Source: Cymbomonas tetramitiformis (taxonomy: Eukaryota; Chlorophyta; Pyramimonadophyceae; Pyramimonadales; Pyramimonadaceae). From it: 64,000 nucleotides of DNA. Each line of letters opens with the position of its first letter. Within the stretch, counting starts at the first letter, position 1. Positions 17,591-57,252 of this stretch are shown here, piece after piece. Where the stretch lies: assembly GCA_001247695.2 (NCBI GenBank), contig LGRX02026996.1:62001-126000 (forward strand). Direction: 5' to 3'. The notes beneath the pieces were generated by a model. It ran no database searches and was not told the DNA's origin. It saw only the letters and a program-made list of their open reading frames with translations. The translations under genes were made by a program, and so were the position numbers.

Positions 17591-17911
17591 GCTACCTCAG
17601 ACACACACATGCAGCCCCCGGTCCCGTCCACAGTGCAGGCCTGTGCCGTCACACCGGATTTCGACTTCCCTCCTGTCCATGAATCTCAGGTACTCAGGAG
17701 GACACCTCGGAGACCACTACTATGTGGAAGCAGTTCATGACAGACACCTCGAGCTGCACTGACACACCCCGGCCCCGGCCAAACAGCTCACACCCTCCAG
17801 AGCACTCTCAGTGGGATTTTTCAGTTATGCCATCTCCCTCCTTCCATCAGCTTAATCAGTTCCTTGAGAACTACAGCCTAACACACCCCTCATATCGCAC
17901 CGACGACCCTG

Positions 17912-20596
17912 ATGAGGATTGGGCCCAGTTTGAGGTCTTTGATGACCACCATTTGGGCCCCACAGATCAGCACTGAGGTCTACGACCCTGCGGTTGCAGT
18001 GCCGTGGGGAGAGACCTCAGCTGCACCGACGGTGCCCCGCACTGTCTGTCACCACAGCACACCGGTGTTCCTCCCTCTGCTTGGGAAAGGCCGCCGTGCC
18101 TCTACTAACACGCACGGACAACTCCTTGTAGATTCAGGAGCCTCACATCTCCTCCTGAATAACAGGGAGCTCTTCGCTGAGTTGTCCCCGTGCACCTCCA
18201 GCATGACTACAGCCTCAGATAAGCATTACAGGCCTCACAGTGTCGGCACAGCCTCCCTTGATTTCCAGTACATCGACGGCAATTGGATCACACTCCCATT
18301 CATCCAAGCCTTCTATGATCCAAATGCCCCAAACCTCCTCTCAGTCCGCCAGATGCTCAGACACGGGGCCCGCTCCCCTGACTTCATCGACCACACGTGG
18401 CACCACGGTGCTTCCCTCTTTGACCTCTATGCCACTGGCAGAGACTATGTTGTCCACCCCAGCAGCTGGCGAGCCACCCCGTCTGCCCACTCCATCGCAC
18501 AGAGGAGACCCCTCCTGCAGCCTGCTCCCTCAGAGCTTGCAGAGAAGGGCACGGTTGACTGGATGGTTGCTAGGTCCGCCTACAGACAGTTTGCCCAGCA
18601 CAGTCCACACGGCTATTGTGACACAGACCTCTACACAGACGGCATCCCCTGCCCACGGGGTAACACACAGTGTCAGCAGTACTACTCCCTCCAGGACCCT
18701 GCTGAGGACCATGTCTGGTGCGGGCGCTCTTTCTGGGCCAACCCGCCCTTCATCAACTCCATCATCCAGAGGATGTTGATGAAGATGCTAGAGGACTTCT
18801 GGTTAGACCCTAATAACACCTCATACACGGGGTGTCTCCGGAAGTCACCATCCGCAGCCTGGTGGCCACTCACCTATCACTTTCAGGAGATAGCCACCAT
18901 CCCAGCAGGCACATCCGGCTTCTTCTCCCGCCCTCGCGCTGGTACCTACTCCCCCCAAGACCTCACAGATGCAGGAGAGGAGGGCGGTGCTGACCGTGTA
19001 TTCATCCAGGGGGCTCCGTTCGACACCACCATCCTTTTCAAGGATGCCACCACAGTCCCCAGGATTGACCCTCATCAGTACCTCCATGCCTGTCTGGGCC
19101 ACTACTCACACCAGTACATTGCTCACCTCTTCTCACAGGGGCTTCAGTTTGCAGTACCCAGACGACACCTCTCCATGAAGACACTCAGGACTATCCTGTC
19201 AGGCTGCGGGTGTGCTCATTGCAACACCTGGAATGCCAAACGCCCAGGACCCTTCAATGTATTTGACAGAGCCAACCGCAGACCGCCTCCGGCTTTGCCA
19301 GCCGACCACCGGCATGTCAAATGGGAACAGTCCGAGCCATTCCGGCACATATTTGCTGACATTTGGGGCACATGCAAACCCCCTGGCTACGACGAGTCAG
19401 TCTTCATCAGTGCCTTTAAGTGCCCCGTCTCTAAAAAGGCCTTCGGATTTGCCTCGCCTTCTAAGGGAGGCCAACACTTCCACCTCCAGTCTGTCCTTGA
19501 TGACATTCAGTCCCACGGCTTCACACCAGAGACCATCACTTTCCACACAGACTGTGCCACAGAGTACGCATCAGAGGAGATGAAGACATTGCTCCGACAG
19601 TACCGCATGCGTCACGAGACTGGTCCGCCATACATGCACGAGTTCCAGGCTCAGATTGAGGTGCTCTGGAGAGACATGCAGAAGATCATGAACAGCACCA
19701 TGCGCACATATGATGCCCCGCTGTACTCATGGCCTCTTGCTGCACTCCATGCCATTAACACAGTCCTCAATGTTATGCCTAACAAGCACATTGGGATGGA
19801 CACACCTCATCTCAGATACACTGGCCGTCACTTCGACTACACCGAGCTCCGGCCCTTCTGGTCCGAGTGCAATGTCTGGCAGGACCCCGCACAGCGCTCT
19901 AAGGCAGGAGCCAACGCTGACACTTCGGCTAAGCTCCAACCTAAGAGCAAGCCATACCGCTATGTCGGGAATCTCACACCAGGCAACTATCTACTGTATG
20001 CTTTGACACATGTGAAAGGGAAACTCAAGGCTCTCTCTAAGCCTACGTCTGTCACTGACCCTGATCTCATGGCTAAGACACTTGCCAACACTCACAACAC
20101 TCTGGCTGATCCCGCCTCCACAGCTATCTTCACAAAGAAGTTGTACCCCATCCGACGCCCCACAGCCTTCTCCTCCCCCGACATCCTCGAGCTTGCATGC
20201 AGCACCCACGAGACAGAGACCTTTGCATATGTCAAGGTCCAGTGTGCTAAACTCAGACATCCGGTCTGGGTGAAGCTCATACCCTATCTCCAGCTGGCCA
20301 AGAGCCACTATGCCACTCTCATCAGCTTCCTCAAGCACAAACACAAACATGGGGCACCTAATGTCTTTTACCCGTGTTTTGCTATGTGCTCGGCTAGGCC
20401 AACCGACCGGCAGAGGTATCACCCTGCAATCATCGTGTCTGTATGTAGACCATACGCCTCAGGTCCAGCACAGATATCAGGTGTACTTCGACTCTGCAGA
20501 CTCACACTCCACCTAGTATGCAGACACCGATGCTGTCATCATCTCCCCAGTGAGACCAGAAGGCCATGCTCCTTGCCCTCAGAGACGCAGACTTAG
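17912..20596 (+). CDS. Copia Pol: protease, Dam-like domain, integrase
   Basis: A continuous frame of 894 codons; the true start may be upstream or internal. An aspartic protease site LLVDSGASHLLLNN lies near residue 70, and a Copia-type NLLSV motif near 130. Residues about 225-330 form an inserted domain with W-x-N-P-P-F near 275 and DPNNTSY after it, matching the layout of phage-type Dam N6-adenine methyltransferases. The integrase follows: an HHCC finger (HACLGHYSH, then CGCAHC), D near 481 (FADIWG), D near 545 (FHTDCATEY) and E near 582, with about 35-residue D-E spacing. The order protease, integrase, RT places it in Copia (Pseudoviridae-like). The Dam-like insertion is unusual. Confidence 0.88.
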   Translation: MRIGPSLRSLMTTIWAPQISTEVYDPAVAVPWGETSAAPTVPRTVCHHSTPVFLPLLGKGRRASTNTHGQLLVDSGASHLLLNNRELFAELSPCTSSMTTASDKHYRPHSVGTASLDFQYIDGNWITLPFIQAFYDPNAPNLLSVRQMLRHGARSPDFIDHTWHHGASLFDLYATGRDYVVHPSSWRATPSAHSIAQRRPLLQPAPSELAEKGTVDWMVARSAYRQFAQHSPHGYCDTDLYTDGIPCPRGNTQCQQYYSLQDPAEDHVWCGRSFWANPPFINSIIQRMLMKMLEDFWLDPNNTSYTGCLRKSPSAAWWPLTYHFQEIATIPAGTSGFFSRPRAGTYSPQDLTDAGEEGGADRVFIQGAPFDTTILFKDATTVPRIDPHQYLHACLGHYSHQYIAHLFSQGLQFAVPRRHLSMKTLRTILSGCGCAHCNTWNAKRPGPFNVFDRANRRPPPALPADHRHVKWEQSEPFRHIFADIWGTCKPPGYDESVFISAFKCPVSKKAFGFASPSKGGQHFHLQSVLDDIQSHGFTPETITFHTDCATEYASEEMKTLLRQYRMRHETGPPYMHEFQAQIEVLWRDMQKIMNSTMRTYDAPLYSWPLAALHAINTVLNVMPNKHIGMDTPHLRYTGRHFDYTELRPFWSECNVWQDPAQRSKAGANADTSAKLQPKSKPYRYVGNLTPGNYLLYALTHVKGKLKALSKPTSVTDPDLMAKTLANTHNTLADPASTAIFTKKLYPIRRPTAFSSPDILELACSTHETETFAYVKVQCAKLRHPVWVKLIPYLQLAKSHYATLISFLKHKHKHGAPNVFYPCFAMCSARPTDRQRYHPAIIVSVCRPYASGPAQISGVLRLCRLTLHLVCRHRCCHHLPSETRRPCSLPSETQT

Positions 20597-22441: not shown

Positions 22442-24616
22442 TCAGCCACTTTGAGGCTGGTCAGCAGAGCCGAGTTCAGCGGTTGGGATGTAAATACAGA
22501 AGAGTCCCGAAGTGAAATGCAAGCTGTCTGTTGTAAATTGAGCACCACCAGACCCAAGTGGGCAAGGCGGTTCCACAGCAGAGGGTAAATCAACTGAAGA
22601 ATTCTGATAAATAGGATCCCACGGTGGTCCGAACTTTGAAGAAAGACATGTAAGAACTCGATCGTCAGGCGGCCAATCACGGATGTCCAGAAAGCCAAGT
22701 GGCGGATCCGAAGCAAAGAGATCTCCAGCAGACCGATGGACGGTGACTCCGGGCTCAACCAGGCCCCTGTCACCACCGCCCACGGCAACCAGAGATGCCG
22801 TAGCACTGGCCAACAGAGAACAGCAGAGCACTGAAGACATCAAGGCACACCGGAGAAAACCCGGCGGAGCCCGTGGACGAAACATCGGAGCTGCAAGTGG
22901 CGATGCTCCCCTGTCAGAGTCATGGTCAGGAGTGCCGAAGGAGTCAAAAGCAACTTGCCGTCCGCCGTCAGAGCCATCGTCAGAGCCTTGGTCGTTGTCA
23001 GAGCCTTCAGAGCCAATGTCAGAAGTCTCAATCGTCATGCCAGCAAACAGCGGAGCCGGTGTAGTGTCGCCAAGCCGGAGCGATGGGACAGAACCAGCCA
23101 AGCCGAGAGAGCCAGGCACAGCCACTGGTGGGTCATGAGCCGTAGGCACACCACCAGCCACGAGTGCAGAGGGATCCCGAACCGCAGGCGGTGGCGGAAT
23201 CGAACCCCGTGCACCCGAGTGGAATGTGGCTAGAGGAAAGTGAGCCACGCCGTCATCGTCAGCCGCCGCATCCCGAGCGGAAGCCGCCGCATCCTGAAAG
23301 TGCCGCAGAGACGTGGGCTCAGCCGTCACAAAAGAATGCGCCGACAGCTCGCACACCTCTGGGCGACCCTCCATCGTGCAGAGCGACTCGAAGGCGTGCT
23401 CATCCCCCGCGTCATAGAAACGCTGGAAACGAACAGCCAAGCAGTCAGCCTCGTAGTCTTCAACCGCACCACAATAGTGGGCAGAGTGAAGACCGCCGTT
23501 GGGGCATTCAGCATGCCAGTGCTTCAAACCACTTTGTGCACACACCGCATTCTTGCAGTGGGGCACGAAGGCACCACTCTTCTTGTCAAACGAGACAAGA
23601 GGAGCGGTGCCAAGCGGTTTAACACCAGCACGATGATGCTTAGCAGCAGAGCGGGTAAGGTGCTTGCCCGCAGGCGGAGGCCCTTCCCGCTTCTGCCGCT
23701 TCAGGTCACGAATGTCCTGTTGCATGCGCTCCAGCTGCTTCTGCAGACTGGACAACGCCGCAGCCAGGTCAGACGCGCCATCGCCGAATGACAGAGCCGA
23801 AACAGGAGTGTCAGAGACTTGCAGGCCGTGGCGGAACTGCTCCCGCACACGAGCCTGAATAGTCAAGAGAGACACGCCTTGCCGCTGGTCAGCCCGAGCC
23901 AAGGAATTAGCCAAGTCACGGTACAATGCCGAATTGCCGAGAGCCTTAAGAAACTGCCGCTTCACCGCGTCCTCCGGCAAGTTGTGGGAACGCTGAACGT
24001 CCCGCAACAGGCCATTGAACTCGCGGATGCCACGGTCAGGATCCTTGCTGCTGGGGATGCGGACCGCCAGCAGCAACTCAAAAGAGTCAAAGGGTTCCGA
24101 ACGCTCCTGGAGCATGCGCACCACCTCAAGGGCAGCGCGCTTGCCATCTCCAGGAACGTCGGACCCAGAGGCCTCAAGCCAGTCTCGGGCAGGCGAGCCA
24201 GGGCGAGCCAGGAATGTCAGAGCCGAGAGCAGCAGTTCATTCGCCTCATGCCTGGCCTCAACTGTCATGTCAGTCAAGTCAAACAAGGGAGCAAACGCCG
24301 TCGACTGCAGCACAAACTGCGTGCGGAGCTCATGCATTATCTGTGAAAAAATGTCCACAGCGTCGGTCTCCGTTCCCGCAAAGCGCTCTGATTTGTCGCC
24401 CAGAATTTTAGTGGCAACGGTTTTGGCAATTTTCCGGTCGAAACTGTCACGAGCCAATTGCCTGCATTTGTCCAAAATCTCTCTTGCAGCTGCGGTGGTC
24501 GGAGCCGGCAGCTGCGGCGTGTGAGGAGTCGCAGCATGCTGCGCACCGACGTCATCAAAAATTGTCTCTAATCTACGGACGCGAGAACGCGTCGATCTAT
24601 TTGCTGTGGTCACCAT
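22442..24616 (-). CDS. Gag-like polyprotein of the gag-only element
   Basis: 724 codons on the minus strand, starting at the ATG at 24614-24616, about 435 bp inside the 5' LTR. The N-terminal half is mainly alpha-helical with a Gag-core feel (SFDRKIAKTVATKIL, FNGLLRDVQRSHNLPEDA). It is followed by a coiled coil near residues 285-310 (LSSLQKQLERMQQDIRDLKR). A Cys/His cluster (CKNAVCAQSGLKHWHAEC) then resembles a zinc knuckle: C, C, H, H, C. The C-terminal third is acidic and Pro/Ser-rich, with a hydrophobic segment near residue 600. No enzyme motif is seen. It probably packages element RNA while a relative supplies Pol. Confidence 0.8.
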   Translation of the reverse strand: MVTTANRSTRSRVRRLETIFDDVGAQHAATPHTPQLPAPTTAAAREILDKCRQLARDSFDRKIAKTVATKILGDKSERFAGTETDAVDIFSQIMHELRTQFVLQSTAFAPLFDLTDMTVEARHEANELLLSALTFLARPGSPARDWLEASGSDVPGDGKRAALEVVRMLQERSEPFDSFELLLAVRIPSSKDPDRGIREFNGLLRDVQRSHNLPEDAVKRQFLKALGNSALYRDLANSLARADQRQGVSLLTIQARVREQFRHGLQVSDTPVSALSFGDGASDLAAALSSLQKQLERMQQDIRDLKRQKREGPPPAGKHLTRSAAKHHRAGVKPLGTAPLVSFDKKSGAFVPHCKNAVCAQSGLKHWHAECPNGGLHSAHYCGAVEDYEADCLAVRFQRFYDAGDEHAFESLCTMEGRPEVCELSAHSFVTAEPTSLRHFQDAAASARDAAADDDGVAHFPLATFHSGARGSIPPPPAVRDPSALVAGGVPTAHDPPVAVPGSLGLAGSVPSLRLGDTTPAPLFAGMTIETSDIGSEGSDNDQGSDDGSDGGRQVAFDSFGTPDHDSDRGASPLAAPMFRPRAPPGFLRCALMSSVLCCSLLASATASLVAVGGGDRGLVEPGVTVHRSAGDLFASDPPLGFLDIRDWPPDDRVLTCLSSKFGPPWDPIYQNSSVDLPSAVEPPCPLGSGGAQFTTDSLHFTSGLFCIYIPTAELGSADQPQSG

Positions 24617-25051
24617 GATGAAGAGACAGGGGAGGAGGTTGAGCTAAACAGGGAGATGGTGTAGGAACGCTTACAGCGGCCAGACGGCTTGCAGAAGCCT
24701 CAGAAGTACAGATTAAAATCCACAGGTCGTGAGCGGAACCATGAGAGCGGCCAAATTCAGTTACGCGTGGAACGACCTCGCCGGAGCCAGCGGCGCACGA
24801 AACAGAATAACCCTCGCTGCGACGATGCTTCCGTAAAAATAAAATAATCCGTCACCAACTGATCTCCTGTGCAGCGAAGGCGAGCACAACGCGTGCCGCC
24901 ATCACTGCCAAGCTAAAAGGCCATACCGTAAGGATCCACCACCGCCCAAGTGGGCGCTCAACCCCTCCTACGTCCTACTTAGCCGAACATGGCAACAGCA
25001 AGGCGCTGTGCCATCATCAGAATCACCGGAAAGCCGGTGCGGCCTATAACC
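24617..25051 (-). other. Leader of gag-only element
   Basis: Untranslated leader between the 5' LTR and the Gag start. The bases next to the LTR, read on the minus strand, are GGTTATAGGCCGCACC and occupy the primer-binding-site position. I could not match them to a particular tRNA 3' end. Confidence 0.5.
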
Positions 25052-43186: not shown

Positions 43187-43254
43187 TGGTCATACTACAC
43201 GTACACAGATTGGACGCAGTGACAATGACGGCACATGATTAATAATACCGAAAG

Positions 43255-44574
43255 GTGCCCGACAAGTTATTCAACGGTCAAATCGTTTCCCTTTTAGGGC
43301 ACACAAATATGTGTCGACGGCATTTGTCCATAAACGACACACGACTGTCACATGACGAGCAGACGCCAACTGAGTGGACCCTCAAGTTTCAGGACTTCTG
43401 GGGTGAGGAGTACAAAAAGGAGATGACGACTGCCCTACCGAACATCGATGGACTCAGACATGACCCCCAAGATGAAGCCAACATTAACCTGGACCCTGAG
43501 CTGAGCAAGAAGGGGCCTCCCTGCCAGCGCATCTACAAGAAGTCTGCAGAGGAACTCCGCCAACTTCGAGAACGCGTGGAGACTCTGATGTCCAAGGGCT
43601 ACATCCGACCCTCTTCCACCAGCCCTTATGCAGCTCCCTGTTTGATGGTCCCTAAACCCGGGAACCCCAAGGAGCTGCGACTGGTGATCGATTACCGGCT
43701 CCTCAACCGCCAGACAGTTAAGGACAAGTATCCTCTCCCAGACATCCAGATGATGTTCGACGAGATGCAGGGTGCGAAGTTCTTCTCTTCATTCGACGCG
43801 GTGGATGGCTTCTGGCAAGTACCGATGGCACCAGGAGATGTCGAGAAGACCGCCTTCACCACCCAGATGGGGTCATATGAGTGGTTGGTCATGCCGCAGG
43901 GGCTGCAGAATTCGCCGTCTCAGTATCAGCGACGGATGCAGCGGGCCTTGGGCCATCTCCCATTTGTCCGGATCTTCATCGATGATGTGGTCGTCTTCAG
44001 CAACACCGCTGCAGAGCACTACGAGCACGTCAAGCAACTGCTCCTGACATGCAGGGAGAAGGGCGTCTTCCTCAAGAGGTCCAAGTGCCAACTGTTGAAG
44101 AAATCCTTGCGGTTCCTTGGCCACTGTATCTCCGCAGATGGCTGCAGACCCCAACACGACAAGGTGGCTGCAGTGAGGGACTGGCCCGAGCTGGAAACGG
44201 TTACCCACGTCAGGCAGTTCTTGGGCCTGGCGGGGTATTACCGCAGGTTCATCCACTGCTTCTCCGAGATTGCTCAGCCTCTCACCCGGTTGACCAAGTC
44301 GGACGTGCCCTGGGAGTGGGGTCCCATGCAGCAGTGGGCCTTCGAGGAGCTGAAGAAGGCCCTCACCTCAGCGCCAGTGCTCGCCTTGCCTAACATTAAG
44401 GGTGCCGCAGACGGCACGGCACCTTTCGTGGTACAGACGGATGCTAGCGGCATCGCTCTTGGGGGAGTACTGATGCAAGACAATGGAGATGGTCTTGGAC
44501 TGCGCGTGATATATAGCATACGAGAGCCGCCAGTTCTCAGCCGCCGAGCAGAATTACCACACCGGCGAGCGTGA
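43255..44574 (+). CDS. Gypsy-type reverse transcriptase and start of RNase H
   Basis: 439 codons; the first Met is arbitrary because gag and protease are missing upstream. RT motifs are in order: MVPKPGNPKELRLVIDYRLLN, YPLPDI, FFSSFDAVDGFWQVPM, FTTQMGSYEWLVMPQGLQNSP and the catalytic FIDDVVVF near residue 240. FLGHCIS, then FLGLAGYYRRFI follow. RNase H begins with FVVQTDASGIALGG near 390. The frame then ends early: at about 44510 the expected YESRQFSAAEQNYHTGERE continues in the next (+1) frame. Order RT-RNase H-integrase marks a Ty3/Gypsy element. Its 5' part is truncated at about 43250. Confidence 0.92.
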   Translation: MPDKLFNGQIVSLLGHTNMCRRHLSINDTRLSHDEQTPTEWTLKFQDFWGEEYKKEMTTALPNIDGLRHDPQDEANINLDPELSKKGPPCQRIYKKSAEELRQLRERVETLMSKGYIRPSSTSPYAAPCLMVPKPGNPKELRLVIDYRLLNRQTVKDKYPLPDIQMMFDEMQGAKFFSSFDAVDGFWQVPMAPGDVEKTAFTTQMGSYEWLVMPQGLQNSPSQYQRRMQRALGHLPFVRIFIDDVVVFSNTAAEHYEHVKQLLLTCREKGVFLKRSKCQLLKKSLRFLGHCISADGCRPQHDKVAAVRDWPELETVTHVRQFLGLAGYYRRFIHCFSEIAQPLTRLTKSDVPWEWGPMQQWAFEELKKALTSAPVLALPNIKGAADGTAPFVVQTDASGIALGGVLMQDNGDGLGLRVIYSIREPPVLSRRAELPHRRA

Positions 44575-47500
44575 GCTAGGTGCTCTACACCATTGCACCA
44601 CCGTTACCTGGCGGCATTACCTCATCTTCACCAACTTCCGCATCCAGGGTGATCACCGCCCCCTTGAATGGCTGATGGAACCTGGCAGGGAGCTTAGCCG
44701 CAGACAGGCACGCTGGTACATGGATCTGGTGGAGGTGGGAGTCCCGAGAATGGAGTACATCAAAGGAGCGCTGCTGCTGGTACCGGACGCCCTGTCCAGA
44801 AGACCTGACTTCAAGGACAAGGACGTGCGTGAGGGGTTGAAGGAGGCAGGGGTGATCGACCCCACCTCAGATCTACCGAAAGACCCCCTGGCAACGCTGG
44901 AGTCTGAATACTTCTCCAGCTCACCACCCGCAGCTCATCCCCACTGGGCCCAGACAGTTGACTGTTGGCTCTCAGCAGTGGAGACCCTCTCCGTGGCGGA
45001 ACAGGCCATGGACATGGGGGAGACCATCGCTCTCGTTAACCCGAAGCTCTATAAGGGAATGAAGGAGGATCACCTCGACTTCGACATGCCTGACTGGCCT
45101 GCAGCTGATGGCGCGAAGCCGGTAAAAGCTCCACACGAACCCCCTGATAGAGCTCCACCCCAGATAAGGATAACGAGGAGTATGTCACGCGCTGGGAAGG
45201 TCTCTACGACCCCAGCGCCTCCGCAGTTGGCGTCACCGAAGACGCGAACACCTACGTCACGAGCTGACGCATCAGAGGCGCCCACTGAGAAGGTGCCAAC
45301 GAGCTCACCAACCCCGCAGCAGGCGCCCCAACAGTCAACTCCATCCCCGGTCCTTCACCCACAGAAACGGCAGGCTCCCCCAGAGGACTCACAGAATTGG
45401 CGTGTCCGAGCAGAGTACTCCTCGAAGTACGCCGAGAAATTTGGACCCTTCGATGTGGACGCCTGTTGTGACTTTGGCGGCCGCAACAGACAGGCGGATA
45501 GATTCTGGACAGACTGCCTTTCAGAGAAATGGAGGGGCCTTCGGGTTTGGTGTAACCCTCCATACAACTCCAAGTGCATTACTGTGGAGGCGATCTTGAA
45601 CAAGTATATCGCAGAATGGAAGGCAGACCCAGAGAACACCTCAGCAGTATTCGTTCTACCAGATCACCAGTCCAAGCTCCCCGCGTGGCGCAAACTTTTC
45701 AGAAAGGCCAATATGCAGATTGTGGAGGTCATCCCTACTCACGATGACAAGGGCGAGCCCAACCAGTTCTTCGAGAACCCAGATGGGAGGGCCTTCGACC
45801 TCCGCTGGCCTGTTCTGATAGTACACGCCCCTCCCGCCAAACCACAACCAGCACGCGTGAGGCATCCGCGAACAGCCCCCGCTGTGATAAGGACAGGTGA
45901 GGCGGCAGACTTCAGAGACGCAGCCTCCCAGCAGTCGGACTCAAGGTTCCTGCGCGCGTTGAAAGCGGAGTACACCCGAGAGGGGACACTTCGCTCACTA
46001 AGAGAGAAAGTGAAGGCGGCGCCACACCAATGCCTACAGGACTTCAGGCTGGTGGGTGAAGTGGTTTGGAGAACCGCAGCAGGGAGATATCAGTTGGTGC
46101 TGGGGGAGGACTCTCCACTTCGAGAAGTAGTGATTCGCCATGCTCATGAGTCATTGTCCTCAGGCCACACTGGGCGAGACAAGACTCTGGAGAGGGTGCT
46201 GCGACGCTTCTATTGGCGTGGTGCCGCGGAAGATGTGGGCACTTGGGTTGCATCCTGCGCAGTGTGCCAATCAGTGAGGCCGCGGGGAACTTACCCGGAT
46301 GGGTTGCTAAACCCTCACAGCATCCCGAACAGGCCATGGCAGGATGTCGCGGTGGACTTCGTCACCGGCCTGCCGGTATCAGAGAGGGGCAATGATGCTT
46401 TCGTGGCCTTCACCTGCAAGCTGACGAAGATGGTCCACGTTGTGCCGATGAACTTCGGTGACAGCTCCGCGGCTGTGGTGGCCAGAATCTACTTTGACTC
46501 GGTGTGGCGCTTACATGGCGCGCCTATGAAGATTGTCTCTGATCGTGACCCGCGGTTTCAAGATGCTTTCTGGCAGGAACTCATGAGACTGATGGGTGTG
46601 AAAGTGGCTCGTACCACGCCGTACAACCCTCGGTCTGACGGCCAGGCGGAACACAGCAACAGGGTTATTGAAGACATGCTCAGGTCCTTTGTAGACGCCA
46701 ATGTGGAGGACTGGGATCTGTTCACCACTAACGTGGAGTTCGCGATCAATGACTCCAGGAGTGAATCTACTGGCTTCACGCCGTTTGAGCTGGTGTTCGG
46801 GTTCTCGCCGCTGTCGCAGTTGGACCTTTTCCTGGAGGCCGCACAGTCCACCGCTGGACGACGAACTGGGGGAGTAGGCACCGCACACGAAGTGGCTGTG
46901 AAATTTTCGTCGCAGCTGCGGGACGCCAGGCAGCGGTTAGAGCTGGCTCAACAGCGACAGCGCGAACAGTTTGATCGCAGACACGGGCAGCGGGAGTATG
47001 CTGTTGGAGATCTGGTCTGGATAGAGGCGAAACACCTTACGGAGAAGGTGATGGATCGCTCCATCTGTAGGAAACTGACCAAGCGCTGGCATGGACCAGT
47101 TCCTGTGACCGAACGCTTCTTCAGCGATGTACAGATGACCATGCCAGAGGCCGACAGAGGAGCTCCAGTAGCCTACCGCCTACGCCTCCCTCCTCACTGG
47201 CGGATTCACGACGTGTTCGCTCAACATCGCCTCAAACCGTACACCAGCGGTCAAGATGCTTTTGCCGCACGCGATCACCTAGCAGTACCTGAAGAAGTGG
47301 TAGTGGACGGTCAGAAGGAAGCACACGTTGAGCGCATCCTTGCACGTCGAGTGCGGTCTGTTCGAGGAAAGGAGGTGGAAGAGTGGAAGGTTCGCTGGAC
47401 TGGCTACTCCAAAGCTCACGACCAATGGAGGACGCGTGACAAACTTGAACGCGGAAGTCCACTTCAACAACTTCGTGAATTCGAGCAAGCGAGACTGCAC

Positions 47501-48235
47501 ATGGAAGCGCAAGTCCGCGACGAAGCCACTCGGCGACGCGAGCAGCGTGGCCGCCACTCCGCTCAAGCCGGAATGACACTGGCCCACCTCATCACTAATC
47601 CCTGCGATGAACTGGACCAGCTCGAACAGATGGAAGATGATATCCCCCTGCCGTGGGAACGCCAAGAGCGCGTGGAAGATGGGTCGCTGGCACTGGTGAC
47701 AGAGCTGCTGGCAATACAGACAAAAACAACCCGCACGCCCAGGATTCTCGTACTTTTCAGCGGTACTGGCTCAGTAGAGAGGGAATTCCTAAATTGCTTC
47801 CCCTCCGCCTCAGTAGTGACCCTCGACTCCGGGCATATCTGGCAACCCACTCATGTGTGTGACATCCTGCAATGGGACTACAGACAATACCCGCCTGGAT
47901 TCTTCGATGTTATTTGGGCAAGTCCCCCCTGCAGGCAGTACAGTCAAGCGCGCACCACTGGTGGACCCCCTGACCTTCCCCAGGCTGACAAAATCGTACG
48001 ACGAGCATTGCAGATCATTGACTACCTGGAGCCAAAACATTGGTTCATGGAAAACCCCAGAGGTCGCTTCCCTAACGCGCTACGGCTTCGCCCTATGATG
48101 CGCCAGCTTCCCCCACCGCTGGTGTGTACCTACTGCATGTACGGTACGCAGTACATGAAACCCACCTGCATATGGACGAACTCAGCACCACCCTCGCCCC
48201 TGCTACGCTGTACTACAGTAAACACTCGATTTTAA
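44507..48235 (+). CDS. Gypsy Pol C-part: RNase H end, Dam-like MTase, integrase, chromodomain, C5-MTase
   Basis: The frame is open from about 44507; the first Met is at 44675, used for numbering. Upstream lies the rest of RNase H (NYHTGERELGALHH, ending DALSRRPD). Near residues 255-385 is a phage-Dam-like domain: FGPFDVDACCDF, RVWCNPPYNSK near 292, then VFVLPDHQSK. The integrase has a zinc finger near 489-540 (HESLSSGH, CAVCQ), D near 560 (VDFVTG), D near 622 (SDRDPRF) and E near 656 (GQAEHSNR). A chromodomain lies near 885-940 (EWKVRWTGYSKAHDQWR). From about 1020 comes a cytosine-5 methyltransferase fold: VLFSGTGSVEREF (motif I), WASPPCRQYSQ (motif IV with catalytic Cys) and ENPRGRF (motif VI, ENP rather than ENV). 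The stop at 48235 comes from a MITE insertion. Confidence 0.9.
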
Positions 48236-48383
48236 GAAAACAGGAATTTTAGGTCAGCCTAGCAAGTTTCTTATTTATATAGAGATCTTAAATATGGAGT
48301 GTTGTGTGTTAAATATTGTGAAGAAATCAAAAAAGCTGGCTACTTTCTTATTGGCGGGTTTTCTTATTACTGAGTGATTACTG
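48216..48383. mobile_element. 168-bp Tc1/mariner-type MITE
   Basis: The ends CAGTAAACACTC and the complement of CAGTAATCACTC are inverted, and similarity continues through TAAGAAAAC on both sides. TA lies at each border (48214-48215 and 48384-48385), the target duplication typical of Tc1/mariner. It encodes nothing. Removing it with one TA lets the upstream methyltransferase frame run on to a TAG at 48562-48564, adding about 60 codons including a YPVPALLRQLF stretch that fits a C5-MTase C-terminus. Confidence 0.85.
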
Positions 48384-48385
48384 TA

Positions 48386-48564
48386 CTTCAACACCGTGTG
48401 CGTGCAGATGGGCAACCGGTGCTCATCCAGAGACTGCTCAGCTTGGACCTCACCCGCAGCAGACTGGAGCAGGTCGATCTGCGAGTGTATATCCCGTGCC
48501 AGCACTCCTGCTACGACAACTTTTCCGACATCTACGCCTCCGCGACACTGAAGACCCGCTTTAG
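48386..48564 (+). pseudogene. Severed C-terminus of the Gypsy C5-methyltransferase
   Basis: Read in the frame restored by excluding the MITE, this gives the C-terminal segment of the methyltransferase: a Cys/Arg/Trp start, a His/Pro-rich middle and RSASVYPVPALLRQLF before the stop. C5-MTases end with an arginine and proline-containing helix in this position. In the present sequence it is cut off from the catalytic domain. Confidence 0.65.
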
Positions 48565-52045: not shown

Positions 52046-52560
52046 GAGTGTGTGTTGAATCCTTTGATCCCCGGTATGGGTACATAGCGCAGCCGATCTT
52101 CCGCGGTTACATCGCGCCAAAGAAATGGATCCAACGATCAGCCACGCAAACGCAGCCGAGCTTCCGCGGTTACATTACGCCAAAGAAATGGATCCAACGG
52201 TCAGCCACACGCAAACGCAGCCGATCTTCCGCGGTTACATCGCGCCAAAGAAATGGATCCAACGGTAAGCCACGCAAACGCAGCCGATCTTCCGCGGTTA
52301 CATCGCGCCAAAGAAATGGATCGAACGATCAGCCATGCAAACGCAGCCGATCTTCCGCGGTTACATCGCGCCAAAGAATGGATCCAACGATCAGCCACGC
52401 AAACGCAGCCGATCTTCCGCGGTTACATCGCGCCAAAGAAATGGATCCAACGGTAAGCCACGCAAACGCAGCCGATCTTCTGTGGCTAGATGCTTCAAAG
52501 GAATCGGTACAAGGATGAGCCCCACACCAGCGAGCCGACATTCTGTGGCTACATGTTGCC
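52046..52560. repeat. 63-bp minisatellite, about seven copies
   Basis: Units around CGCAGCCGATCTTCCGCGGT and AAGAAATGGATCCAACG recur at 52089, 52152, 52217, 52280, 52343, 52405 and 52468, then decay. The opening TGAATCCTTTGATCCCCGG is shared with 32980, so this is a dispersed family with local amplification. The period is 21 codons and open on both strands. Confidence 0.9.
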
Positions 52561-52603
52561 GAAGGAATCGGTCGAACGATAAGCCAAACCCACTTACAAA
52601 TAC

Positions 52604-52850
52604 CTTTGTTTCTGGAGCAGGCGGCTCAGGATCCTTCGTTTCCGCAGCCGGCGGCTCAGCATCCTTCGTTTCCGCAGCCGGCGGCTCAGGAACCTTCGTT
52701 TCCGCAGCAGGCTGCTCAGGATCCTTCGTTTCCGAAGCAGGCGGCTCAGGAACCTTCGTTTCCGCAGCTGGCGGCTCAGCATCCTGCGGCAATCCCTGCA
52801 ACACACAAGGCTCAGCATCCTGCAGCAGTCCCTGCAACACGCAAGAGCTC
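52604..52850. repeat. 30-bp coding repeat (10-residue EPPAAETKDP)
   Basis: About six units of 30 bp, GCGGCTCAGGATCCTTCGTT plus TCCGCAGCCG on the plus strand, encode the minus-strand decapeptide. It is inferred as part of an exon. Confidence 0.85.
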
Positions 52851-55800
52851 ATGTAGTCTCCGGGACTCCCTGGCCGAACCACCGATTGATACGTGAATCG
52901 CGACACAGCTTCGGCCTACAACAACAACCTACAGTCCAGATCGTCGAACTGGCTGCAGCATCCAAAAATCTACGGTGCATAGGTGCCTGACAACCCCCCC
53001 ACCCGGAAAATGTGGTGCCGACATGCCTGACACCCCCCTCCGAGCAAATGTGGTGACCAGATGCCCGGCATTCCCCCTCGGAGCACATGTGGTGCCCAGG
53101 TGCCCGACAGCCAGACCAACCGGAGCACATGTGGTGACTAGGTGCCCAACAGCCAGCCCCCCCGACACATGTGGTACCCAGGTGCCTTAACCCCCACTCG
53201 GGCACATGTGGCCACAGCTCTCCGTATCACGACTTGCGTTAGTGGCGAGTTTGAGCAGCGATGTGCTTTCGAAGGCGACTGAACACTCGGCGGGTTCGCC
53301 GCGTGTTCTGCTGGCGTGGTTGCGAGGAAAGTTCAAGTCTTTCCGGTACCTTGCGTGGTCGGCCTCTTTTTTTCTGCCGGGGAGGGGCTTGGTTCTTCAT
53401 CTTGGCTTCCGGTGGATCTTCAGGCATGGGTGGCGTTGTGCACGCCCGTCGACTCGGCCCAGGCGTGGTGCTGGTGCGTCTTCCAAGGCATCTCGGGTGA
53501 GCTGCACTGCTTCTTCTTCAACCTGCAAATCGGAATCACAAACATCGGTGAACTCATGCTTATCTCCTACCCCTGGACGGTTCACAGGCGCCTGACAGCC
53601 CCATCATGGAGCACATGTGGTGCCCGGGTGCCCGACAGCCAGACCAACCGGGCACATGTGGTGACTAGGTGCCCAACAATGGCCCCAGACACATGGTGCC
53701 CAGTTGTAACCCCACTCGGAGCACATGTGGCCACAACTCTCCGTATCACGGCACGTTAGTGAGTTTGAGCAACGATGTGCTCGAAGACGACAGACACTCG
53801 ACGGTTCATCGCATTCTGCTGACGTGGTTGCGAGGGAAAGTTTCAGGAAGTCTTTCCGGTACCTTGCGTGGTCGGCCTCTTTTTTTCTGCAAGGGAGGGC
53901 TTGGTTCTTCATCTTCGCTTCCGGTGGATGTCGAGCCGTGGCGGCGTTGTGCACGTCGACTCGACGGGCGTGGTGCTGGTGCGTCTTCCAAGGCATGTCC
54001 CGGGGGAGCTGCACTCGCTTCCACTGCTTCAACAACCTGCAGTCCACATCGCAAACATCGGTGCGACTCATAGGCACCTACCCCTGGACGGTTCACAGGC
54101 GCCTGACAGCCCCCCATCCCCAGAGCACATGTGGTGCCCAGGTGCCCGAACCCCCCCCCACCCGGAGCACATTTGGCCACAACTCTCCGTATCACGGCAC
54201 GTTACTGAGTTTGAACCAACGATGTGCTCGAAGACGACAGACACTCAACGGTTCATCGCATTCTGCTGACGTGGTTGCGAGGGAAAGTGTCAGGAAGTAT
54301 TTCCGGTACCTTGCGTGGTCGGCCTCTTTTTTTCTGCCGGGGAGGGCTTGGTTCTTCATCTTCGCTTCCGGTGGATGTCGAGCCGCGGTGGCGTTGTGCA
54401 CGCCGTCGACTCGACGGGCGTGGTGCTGGTGCGTCTTCCAAGGCATCTCCCGGGTGAGCTGCACTCGCTTCAACTGCTTCAACAACCTGCAATCCAGATC
54501 ACAAACATCGGTGCGACTCATACGCATCTCCTACCCCTGGACGGTTCACAGGCGCCTGACAGCCCCCATCCTCGGAGCACATGTGGTGCCCAGGTGCCCG
54601 ACAGCCAGACCAACCGGAGCACATGTGGTGACTAGGTGCCCAACAGCCAGCCCCCTGGCATGGTGCCTAGGTGCCTTAACTCCCCCCCACTCGGAGCACA
54701 TGTGGCCATAACTCTCCGTATCACGGCACGTTAGTGAGTTTGAGCAACGATGTGCTCGAAGACGACAGACACTCGACGGTTCATCGCATTCTGCTGACGT
54801 GGTTGCGAGGGAAAGTTTCAGGAAGTCTTTCCGGTACCTTGCGTGGTCGGCCTCTTTTTTTCTGCAAGGGAGGGCTTGGTTCTTCATCTTCGCTTCCGGT
54901 GGATGTCGAGCCGTGGCGGCGTTGTGCACGTCGACTCGACGGGCGTGGTGCTGGTGCGTCTTCCAAGGCATGTCCCGGGGGAGCTGCACTCGCTTCCACT
55001 GCTTCAACAACCTGCAGTCCACATCGCAAACATCGGTGCGACTCATAGGCACCTACCCCTGGACGGTTCACAGGCGCCTGACAGCCCCCCATCCCCAGAG
55101 CACATGTGGTGCCCAGGTGCCCGAACCCCCCCCCACCCGGAGCACATTTGGCCACAACTCTCCGTATCACGGCACGTTACTGAGTTTGAACCAACGATGT
55201 GCTCGAAGACGACAGACACTCAACGGTTCATCGCATTCTGCTGAAGTGGTTGCGAGGGAAAGTGTCAGGAAGTATTTCCGGTACCTTGCGTGGTCGGCCT
55301 CTCTTTTTCTGCCTGGGAGGGCTTGGTTCTTCATCTTCGCTTCCGGTGGATGTCGAGCCGCGGCGGCGTTGTGCACGCCGTCGACTCGACGGGCGTGGTG
55401 CTGGTGCGTCTTCCAAGGCATGTCCCGGGGGAGCTGCACTCGTTTCAACTGCTTCAACAACCTGCAGTCGAGATCGCAAACATCGGTGCGACTCATACGC
55501 ATCTCCTACCCCTGGACGGTTCAAAGGCGCCTGACACCCCCCCATCCGGAGCACATCTTAGTGCCAAGGTTAATACAGCCTCCCCCACCTGGAGCACATG
55601 TGGTGCCCAGGTGCCCGAACCCCCCCCCACCCGGAGCACATTTGGCCACAACTCTCCGTATCACGGCACGTTACTGAGTTTGAACCAACGATGTGCTCGA
55701 AGACGACAGACAGTCAACGGTTTATCGCATTCTGCTGACGTGGTTGCGAGGGAAAGTGTCAGGAAGTCTTTCCGGTACCTTGCGTGGTCGGCCTCTTTTT

Positions 55801-57252
55801 TTCTGCAAGGGAGGGCTTGGTTCTTCATCTTCGCTTCCGGTGGATGTCGAGCCGCGGCGGCGTTGTGCACGCCGTCGACTCGACGGGCGTGGTGCTGGTG
55901 CGTCTTCCAAGGCATGTCCCGGGTGAGCTGCACCCAAGGCACCTTCGACAGGACCCATAAGGTCAGCTACACTCGAGGCGCCAGTCAAGAGGGGCACCGA
56001 CCCTGCCACTGAGGCACCGTCTACGAGGGGCACCGACCCTGCCACTGAGGCACCGTCTACGAGGGGCACCAAACCTGCCAATAATACGGCTTCACAGGGG
56101 TAAACCTGTTTGAACTACACCTCTAATAACCTTAAGAGTTTTGAGTATGACTTCTGTTGTGGGGTCTTAGGGTTCAGGTCCAGGCCTTCAGCATTCAGGT
56201 ATGGCGTACTCGGAATAAGTTTTCAGGATTTCAGCAGAAGCAAAGGCCAGTCTCGCGCCGAGTAATGCCTACACCCTCGTACCTGCGCGCTGTGGGCGCA
56301 TGTGCTGGCACAGCTGTGCCACGAGGGAGTAGCAGTCCAAGGGGTCTCTAAACACCTCTGCCAGGATCTTGTCGAGCCGAATTGTCGAGACAGAGATACC
56401 ATCCGTGCGCCGCACTGGCGGTGCTCCTAGCTTGCGAAAGTGTATGTACCTCCACAGAAGCTCCAGCACCTGCTCAGTCACGCCTCCCCCACGTCGTCGT
56501 GCCTCCAAACGGTTCGTCTCGACCTCGAATGTGGTCACCACCTCTAGGCGCTCTAAGCTGGTACATACTTTAGAAAAATGATCAGTTGAAGGCAAGTATT
56601 TGGGCTTCTATTCCATACGAACTTCCATACCTCGCGCGCCTCGCAGCAACATTTTTGATGGTAGAGGCGCTACCTTCGGCTTTGATGTCGGGAACTCAGA
56701 GGTCGTCGCGTTGGAATGCGTGGACAGAGCTTGCCAGATCGACGTCAGTGCCTCCAGTAGTGCGGGCGAGAGCTCGCATGCCCCTGAAAGTGTCGGGACG
56801 GTTGCGGCCAAGGACCTGCCAACACCTTTTGGGAAATCTTACATTCCAGCTCCCTGTTCTGAACATACCGCACGGTTAACGGACAGAAGAACAGACAAAG
56901 CATATGGCAGCTCGGAAGCACGTTCGAAGCGCAGCACTTTGTGCCAAAACGGGCATATTCACCTTTCACTTTCACCCTGACGACTTCCTATCAGAAAACG
57001 ATCCACCTGCGGGCAGCATCGAGTAGCAAACAGTCAGTCGCACTCGAACGCACCTTGGTAAGCGATTATCTCAAAACACCTTACCTCACTCTTTATAAAC
57101 TGTTTGCGATGATTCAAGCAAGACGATGTTTCTTCTTCAAGCTTGGATCGCAGTTCCCTGGTCGTTGTTGATTGCAGATCTGATTCTGCCAAGAGGCGAT
57201 GTAATCTGCCGGCCAGCTCCTCGTCTGACAATGTGCAAGGAGACCGTTCCAT
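52604..57252 (-). CDS. DEK_C / SWIB-like / multi-AT-hook chromatin protein, multi-exon
   Basis: Minus strand, exons inferred. 57252-57085: starts ATG; 56 codons match a DEK C-terminal domain (LSDEELAGRLHRLLAESDLQ, then KQFIK), with donor GTAAGG. About 56850-56631: helical, ending KMLLRGAR before GTATGG. 56557-56283: SWIB/MDM2-like, with VLELLWRYIHFRKL and IRLDKILAEVF. Then six tandem exons (about 55950-53350), each with an AT-hook KKRGRPRK directly before a donor GTACCG. Last, 52870-52604: Pro/Glu repeat EPPAAETKDP, ending at a GTATTT donor. DEK_C plus SWIB is a plant-type chromatin-remodelling architecture; AT-hooks bind the AT minor groove. Whether all exons form one mRNA is inference; the SWIB match and the middle exon are the weakest parts. 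Confidence 0.55.
52985..53215. repeat. CACATGTGGTGCCCAGGTGC repeats, 40-50 bp apart
   Basis: Five or six degenerate copies of a phrase with ACATGTGGTG and AGGTGCC. The same phrases recur in the introns between the AT-hook exons. Confidence 0.75.
53350..55950 (-). repeat. Six tandem AT-hook exon units, with a 975-bp higher-order repeat
   Basis: A landmark TGGTTCTTCATCTTCGC (first copy TGGTTCTTCATCTTGGC) recurs at 53390, 53902, 54349, 54877, 55324 and 55818, i.e. spacings 512, 447, 528, 447 and 494. Units 53902+54349 are repeated almost exactly as 54877+55324, a 975-bp duplication. The inferred minus-strand exons are 53863-54036 (174 bp), 54310-54486 (177), 54838-55011 (174) and 55285-55461 (177), all phase 0 at both ends, plus diverged copies at each edge. 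Each carries a SEDEEPSPP acidic stretch followed by KKRGRPRK. Confidence 0.88.
55985..56085. repeat. 36-bp repeat
   Basis: GAGGGGCACCGACCCTGCCA and CTGAGGCACCGTCTAC recur two to three times. Confidence 0.85.

Follow-up and report, generated by a model that had tools for sequence, protein, structure and literature searches.

A Ty3/Gypsy-type chromodomain retrotransposon of Cymbomonas tetramitiformis with two DNA methyltransferase-like domains in Pol

Methylase captures by retrotransposons have been ascribed to long terminal repeat (LTR) Copia and DIRS elements (PMC12344493, 2025, in its available text). A Gypsy-type Pol with a cytosine-5 (C5) methylase in the Pol open reading frame (ORF) is represented by KnitGypsy-Dnmt3 of Klebsormidium nitens, and CG methylation was shown in yeast for SymbioDIRS-Dnmt3, for which de Mendoza 2018 proposed self-methylation of cDNA (both from the accessible sections of PMC5890265). 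A chromodomain pol gene of Cymbomonas has been called related to Chlamyvir chromoviruses (PMC10675990, accessible sections). Here we describe an element copy lying within ∼43246-48564 of a 64,000-nt stretch of Cymbomonas tetramitiformis DNA, hereafter the window. This copy is a decayed, 5′-truncated Ty3/Gypsy-type chromodomain retrotransposon. In its intact relatives, one long Pol or Gag-Pol ORF holds protease, reverse transcriptase (RT), RNase H, a Dam-like adenine methylase domain, integrase, a chromodomain and a C5 methylase domain. An initial annotation of the window had proposed a Gypsy Pol with two methylase-like domains and a chromodomain, and this proposal finds support in profile hidden Markov models (HMMs), in structure models and in the many long relatives that have a single ORF.

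Two methylase folds in a Gypsy Pol

The window copy comprises the following features.

43348..44511, + strand: first surviving part of Pol, RT and start of RNase H; frame 1, inside ORF 43246-44574 (PF00078 1.3e-32, PF17919 3.9e-13)
44510..48235, + strand: second part of Pol, a 1241-aa ORF in frame 2, past a frame change near 44511
44513..44731, + strand: remainder of RNase H (PF17917 5.1e-16)
45386..45802, + strand: Dam-like adenine methyltransferase domain, motifs GPFDVDACCD and WCNPPY
46112..46630, + strand: integrase, H2C2 zinc-binding domain and rve core (PF17921 2.9e-17; PF00665 1.9e-5, below cut-off)
47162..47242, + strand: integrase C-terminal SH3-like domain, SH3_Tf2-1 (PF24626 1.4e-8)
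47324..47485, + strand: chromodomain (PF00385 4.8e-7, above cut-off)
47732..48217, + strand: C5-cytosine methyltransferase domain, motifs FSGTGSVE, SPPC, ENP and YCxYGxxYxKPTxIWTN
48215..48384, no strand given: insert of 170 bp resembling a miniature inverted-repeat transposable element, splitting the C5 coding sequence
48385..48561, + strand: final 59 codons of C5, in frame 1 (100% identity to residues 2434-2492 of relative P0064)

Pfam profiles placed RNase H, Dam, H2C2, rve, SH3_Tf2-1, Chromo and DNA_methylase in this order within ORF 44510-48235, bearing out the claimed succession of Dam-like domain, DDE integrase, chromodomain and C5 domain in one Pol frame. Every motif named in the initial annotation (NPPY, FSGTGSVE, SPPC, ENPRG) was found in the ORF, NPPY at residue 349 of the 1241 and not, as had been given, near residue 292. 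The single Pol frame drawn at 44507..48564 holds from the Dam-like domain to most of the C5 domain; RT lies in the other frame (43246-44574), and the end of C5 lies beyond the ORF stop. By sequence, the integrase matched Ty3 Gag-Pol and PFV integrase. The Ty3/Gypsy order protease-RT-RNase H-integrase was found in the intact relatives P0012 and P0064, the window copy retaining RT-RNase H-integrase, and the chromodomain sits at the integrase C-terminus as in chromoviruses. A DIRS origin was ruled out because the integrase is of DDE type (H2C2 plus rve), with no phage integrase among the domains listed at E 10.

The Dam-like region matched PF05869 (Dam) over residues 290-361 of the window ORF at E 2.8e-7 (30.8 bits against a cut-off of 28.1), so the lack of any adenine methylase match, to which the initial annotation had been vulnerable, did not materialize. 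The curated score and the catalytic NPPY/F motif together predict membership of the Dam family from sequence. In PHROGs, residues 285-385 matched phrog_111 (DNA methyltransferase) at 2e-11. Viral contigs contained 8 Dam loci at 35-46% identity; phage records gave no match to the domain, and Foldseek with the model of the Dam-like domain returned no significant match.

The C5 domain carries motifs I, IV (PPC) and VI (ENP), and structural matches to its AlphaFold model include DNMT3A and M.HhaI; residues 1068-1229 matched phrog_757 (DNA methyltransferase) at 5.8e-15. Among PDB chains DNMT3A is the nearest fold; both the model and the sequence of a Tetraselmis virus 1 putative cytosine DNA methyltransferase are closer. 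No DNMT3 match to the C5 domain appeared at E 10 in a PDB sequence search, and the C5 tree discussed below contained no DNMT3 sequences. The Tetraselmis virus 1 enzyme (218 aa, 39% identity) is compact like the domain described here and is its best structural match among viral models, but is a virus gene, whereas our C5 domain is part of a retroelement. The C5 domain is of a compact kind that also occurs in viruses; it may have been shared between these elements and giant viruses of algae, and not captured from a host DNMT. Further C5 matches comprised 42 loci in viral contigs (24-40% identity) and 11 in phage records (28-33%). Plasmid records yielded no match.

The window copy itself is dead, being 5′-truncated, frameshifted and broken near the C5 end by the insert. 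In tblastn with P0064, Pol pieces 43348-44511 and 44513-48217 (the latter in frame 2) were 97.9% and 97.7% identical to residues 816-1202 and 1202-2434, respectively. The 1241-aa ORF ends before C5 completes; the insert interrupts it and the remainder lies in another frame. The insert has 13-bp terminal inverted repeats (12/13 matching) and ACT at either side, and no second copy of its ends was found in the window with the pattern used. Neither protease nor Gag nor LTR was found around the copy by repeat search, blastn of the flanks or tblastn with P0064. Since this copy is broken, domain order was judged from relatives, where it holds; function, too, would have to be read from relatives. The intact relatives P0064 and P0012 carry both methylase domains, and P0064 (2492 aa, ∼98% identical to the window copy) has all domains, with a protease match from residue 594.

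A diverse family with variable architecture

Searches with the Dam-like region retrieved 10 proteins, with the C5 region 59, and with the RT of P0012 503 matches, the census being made on the 120 listed. With our own HMMs (E < 1e-4), both methylase domains were recognized in 46 of these, the Dam-like domain only in 29, C5 only in 1 and neither in 44. The Dam-only count is slightly too high because our HMMs missed the N-terminal C5 of P0154 (Pfam 3.4e-8), and several Dam-only entries may be truncated models. Among the 44 without either domain are proteins of land plants and pseudoscorpions. Some of the 44 may be truncated, including Cymbomonas gene models such as P0065 and P0075, which list only protease, RT and RNase H. 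The initial annotation had seen a single element, and its relatives now show a diverse family. Its expectation that relatives carry both domains held for the intact ones, and some relatives have no recognizable second domain.

The order protease-RT-RNase H-Dam-integrase-chromodomain-C5 was the commonest architecture (32/176 proteins, as single ORFs or gene models). The named proteins nearest the window are from Cymbomonas tetramitiformis, with one from Pseudoscourfieldia marina and one from Polarella glacialis, and many relatives came from JGI, ENA and other sources; hosts of the lineage appear to be largely algae. The only genome-contig locus found (NHEN01000032.1, 1-4513) is filed under a Verrucomicrobiaceae metagenome-assembled genome. 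It encodes a retroelement Pol of the kind described here; read by eye, this Pol holds the last part of a Dam-like domain, then integrase, a chromodomain and a C5 domain with all motifs. Another long ORF lies ∼330 bp past this Pol, and no LTRs were found in the 4.5 kb, as none were found for the 5′-truncated window copy. The locus is probably mis-binned eukaryotic DNA.

Several relatives depart from the commonest order. In P0025 and P0027 (Pfam), and in P0026, P0096 and P0142 (own HMM), the stretch separating the Dam-like domain from integrase contains PHD fingers; the chromodomain label derives from our own HMM, and P0025 and P0027 carry it without a Pfam chromodomain match. A separate RT clade (P0158, P0161, P0168) carries C5 N-terminally, a Tudor domain (PF21743, PTM/DIR17-like) following integrase, and the Dam-like domain C-terminally. 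Other arrangements are integrase-C5-Dam (P0038), RNase H-C5-integrase (P0044) and C5 ahead of RT (P0034). In the C5 tree, 3 of 4 N-terminal C5 sequences grouped together (99%), separately from the C-terminal type (85%), within which the fourth, P0120, was nested. Tentatively, given the long branches, the methylase pairing was therefore probably assembled on more than one occasion, or was reshuffled from one element to another. On an RT tree of the 74/176 proteins retained (RT, RNase H and integrase present, ≥1350 aa, a single strong RT), presence of Dam required 4 changes and that of C5 14, a number inflated by truncated models and decayed domains. All three trees, for RT, C5 and Dam, are quick constructions in which several branches are long, so the numbers of gains read from them carry little weight.

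A further LTR-type Pol, unrelated to the first, lies at 17882-20596 (+ strand) of the window. It is Copia-like (Pol_BBD, rve and SH3_retrovirus, all three below cut-offs) and has a low CpG observed/expected ratio of 0.50. Its Pol_BBD and integrase are separated by a Dam-like insertion that includes NPPF (PF05869 9.4e-5, below cut-off). On the basis of this insertion, two LTR element kinds within 64 kb seem to carry a Dam-like domain. Elsewhere in the window, a 733-aa ORF (22442-24643, − strand) is Gag-like by eye, with no Pfam match at E 0.1, and tandem arrays occupy 52088-52586, 52572-52811 and 53710-55925, with periods of ∼63 and ∼30 bp plus a longer repeat spaced ∼447-528 bp.

Retention and decay of catalytic motifs

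Motif retention was scored in 46 elements that keep both folds. This set excludes elements without a chromodomain. It consists of 38 members with RT-RNase H-Dam-integrase-C5 order, near-full-length domains and a chromodomain (own HMM), plus 8 with a decayed C5 tail. Both catalytic motif sets were kept in 29 elements, only the C5 set in 9, only the adenine set in 3, and neither in 5. Loss of S-adenosylmethionine-binding residues across the family, which would have told against the initial annotation, was therefore not seen in the majority, and at least one motif set was gone in 17/46. In this set, dual catalytic motifs are common, not indispensable. Given the 17 losses and the relatives without a second domain, the family is not uniform in its possession of both activities.

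Among the 38 full-order members, median pairwise identity was 0.51 for RT, 0.58 for RNase H, 0.48 for integrase and 0.48 for C5, and reached 0.38 for Dam, 0.36 for the chromodomain and 0.15-0.25 for linkers. C5 and Dam distances tracked RT distances in these members. In an alignment of 21 sequences, SPPC, ENP and YC..G....K.T were invariant.

The 8 elements with decayed C5 folds at the C-terminus (P0110, P0111, P0115, P0117, P0119, P0125, P0128 and P0130) were picked from 26 Dam-only entries for a chromodomain and a long tail, the other 18 lying outside this test. In four groups, the tails matched the C5 profile with 92-97% profile-profile probability, against ≤1.2% for integrase, RT and Dam profiles and ≤1.7% for column-shuffled tail controls (20 in each of three groups). 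Their C5 motif was scored as lost by definition and checked afterwards: PPC was absent from all 8. The adenine motif was missing as well in 5/8.

Possible roles of the methylase domains and comparison with known elements

We consider it an even call that this Ty3/Gypsy chromodomain lineage uses two Pol-encoded writers to methylate the cDNA or the new insertions that it makes. Through Pol, both predicted writers would join the replication complex. Adjoining RT and RNase H, the Dam-like domain could act on nascent cDNA, although its position beside RNase H would fit template RNA as well. C5, tethered to the integrase-chromodomain module, could methylate either intasome-bound cDNA or the newly made insertion, its position after integrase and chromodomain fitting either the intasome or target chromatin. 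The element would thereby reach the nucleus and chromatin already bearing host-like adenine and cytosine marks, which might keep it from being recognized as foreign or determine the state of its chromatin. Any advantage to the element from such marks is guesswork.

Several observations weigh against this reading. At the profile level, the window C5 domain scored 21.8 bits with PF00145 (DNA_methylase; 1.4e-4), 0.2 bits short of the cut-off of 22, so that of the proposed C5 assignment the fold was upheld and the profile score fell just below; P0064 (24.5) and P0027 (23.5) pass, P0012 (20.0) and P0016 (17.2) do not. The NCBIfam models TIGR00675 (dcm; 15.1 bits, cut-off 100.7) and TIGR01712 (phage N6-adenine; 23.3 bits, cut-off 97) were far from satisfied in the window, and the fold of the Dam-like domain is closer to the RNA cap-adenosine methylase CAPAM than to DNA Dam. 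At least one motif set is missing from 17/46 elements, and both from 5 that keep both folds, so some lineages can dispense with catalysis. Linkers also co-vary with RT (rho 0.22-0.53), and co-variation alone is no proof of function. CpG observed/expected was 0.75 in the element and 0.84 in the window (per-kb quartiles 0.73-0.95), a slight depletion with no clear methylation footprint; CpG and GATC counts are uninformative. Finally, KnitGypsy-Dnmt3 had no detectable activity in yeast, a result its authors call inconclusive (PMC5890265, in the text available).

The best-surviving alternative, though an unlikely one, is that a chromodomain-steered C5 methylates chromatin at the insertion site as a mobile chromomethylase, silencing the new copy or spreading 5-methylcytosine (5mC) with less harm to the host. 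Integrase, chromodomain and C5 are consecutive in the commonest architecture, and relatives carry PHD and Tudor readers. The best PDB sequence match of C5 (E 0.23, not significant) is a maize chromomethylase. However, C5 lies far from the integrase end in N-terminal-C5 elements, and only 2/3 positions of the chromodomain cage (W and Y) are kept in the alignment of the window and P0064, the first, in HP1 numbering, being A.

Somewhat less probable is that the Dam-like domain is an RNA methylase, acting for example on the cap-adjacent adenosine of element RNA, and that C5 alone acts on DNA. CAPAM methylates RNA and the phage N6-adenine methylases DNA; both are stand-alone proteins, whereas the Dam-like domain lies inside Pol. 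More doubtful still is that one or both domains are now non-catalytic and retained as DNA- or chromatin-binding parts of Pol. Losses of the adenine motif in 14/46 elements and of the C5 motif in 8/46, and the PPC-less C5 tails of apparently Dam-only elements, speak for it; the 29 elements with both motif sets, among them the window copy's intact relative P0064, and the invariant C5 motifs speak against it. An assembly chimera or chance motif match, suggested by the broken window copy and one Pfam score just below cut-off, can be dismissed, being contradicted by P0064, P0012 and the same order in 32/176 proteins from several sources, some clusters holding 31-76 member sequences.

In the prasinophytes Micromonas and Ostreococcus, 5mC runs along gene bodies, and the first nucleosomes of active genes carry N6-methyladenine (6mA) in its place (PMC12695648, accessible text), so a two-writer element may have a host where both marks matter. 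We would venture, as an improbable extension, an old and diverse guild of marine-algal LTR elements that combine writers for adenine and cytosine with a chromatin reader, be it chromodomain, PHD or Tudor, in more than one order. These elements would write prasinophyte-like 6mA/5mC so that copies pass as host chromatin, and the reciprocal decay of either writer into a pseudo-enzyme fold would be adaptation to one-mark hosts. Natural variants with both, either or neither motif set offer a comparative experiment on why a methylation-silenced parasite encodes methylases. The family also links algal retroelements to the C5 enzyme of an algal giant virus, and its intact members may, if the proposal is true, write DNA marks on their own copies.

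Each of the closest described systems shares part of this design. KnitGypsy-Dnmt3 likewise has a C5 methylase within a Gypsy Pol ORF, but its enzyme is Dnmt3-type and host-derived, whereas that of the window family is compact and nearest a viral enzyme; the accessible text of PMC5890265 mentions no adenine methylase in it and contains no occurrence of "chromodomain". SymbioDIRS-Dnmt3 and Dam-bearing DIRS elements, as available descriptions have them, also carry a DNA-methylase domain in Pol alongside RT, with one methylase per element and a tyrosine recombinase, in contrast to the two methylases and DDE integrase found here. Chlamyvir chromoviruses of green algae combine a Ty3/Gypsy Pol with a chromodomain, as here (PMC6317226, PMC3350952); in the portions accessible, "methyltransferase" occurs nowhere in PMC6317226 or PMC10675990 and once, in a reference, in PMC3350952. 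No retroelement with both methylases was found in openly licensed PMC papers, a coverage that leaves out most subscription papers and preprints. Retrotransposons bearing a single DNA methylase are thus already known, and two base-methylase folds with a chromatin reader in one polyprotein are apparently new.

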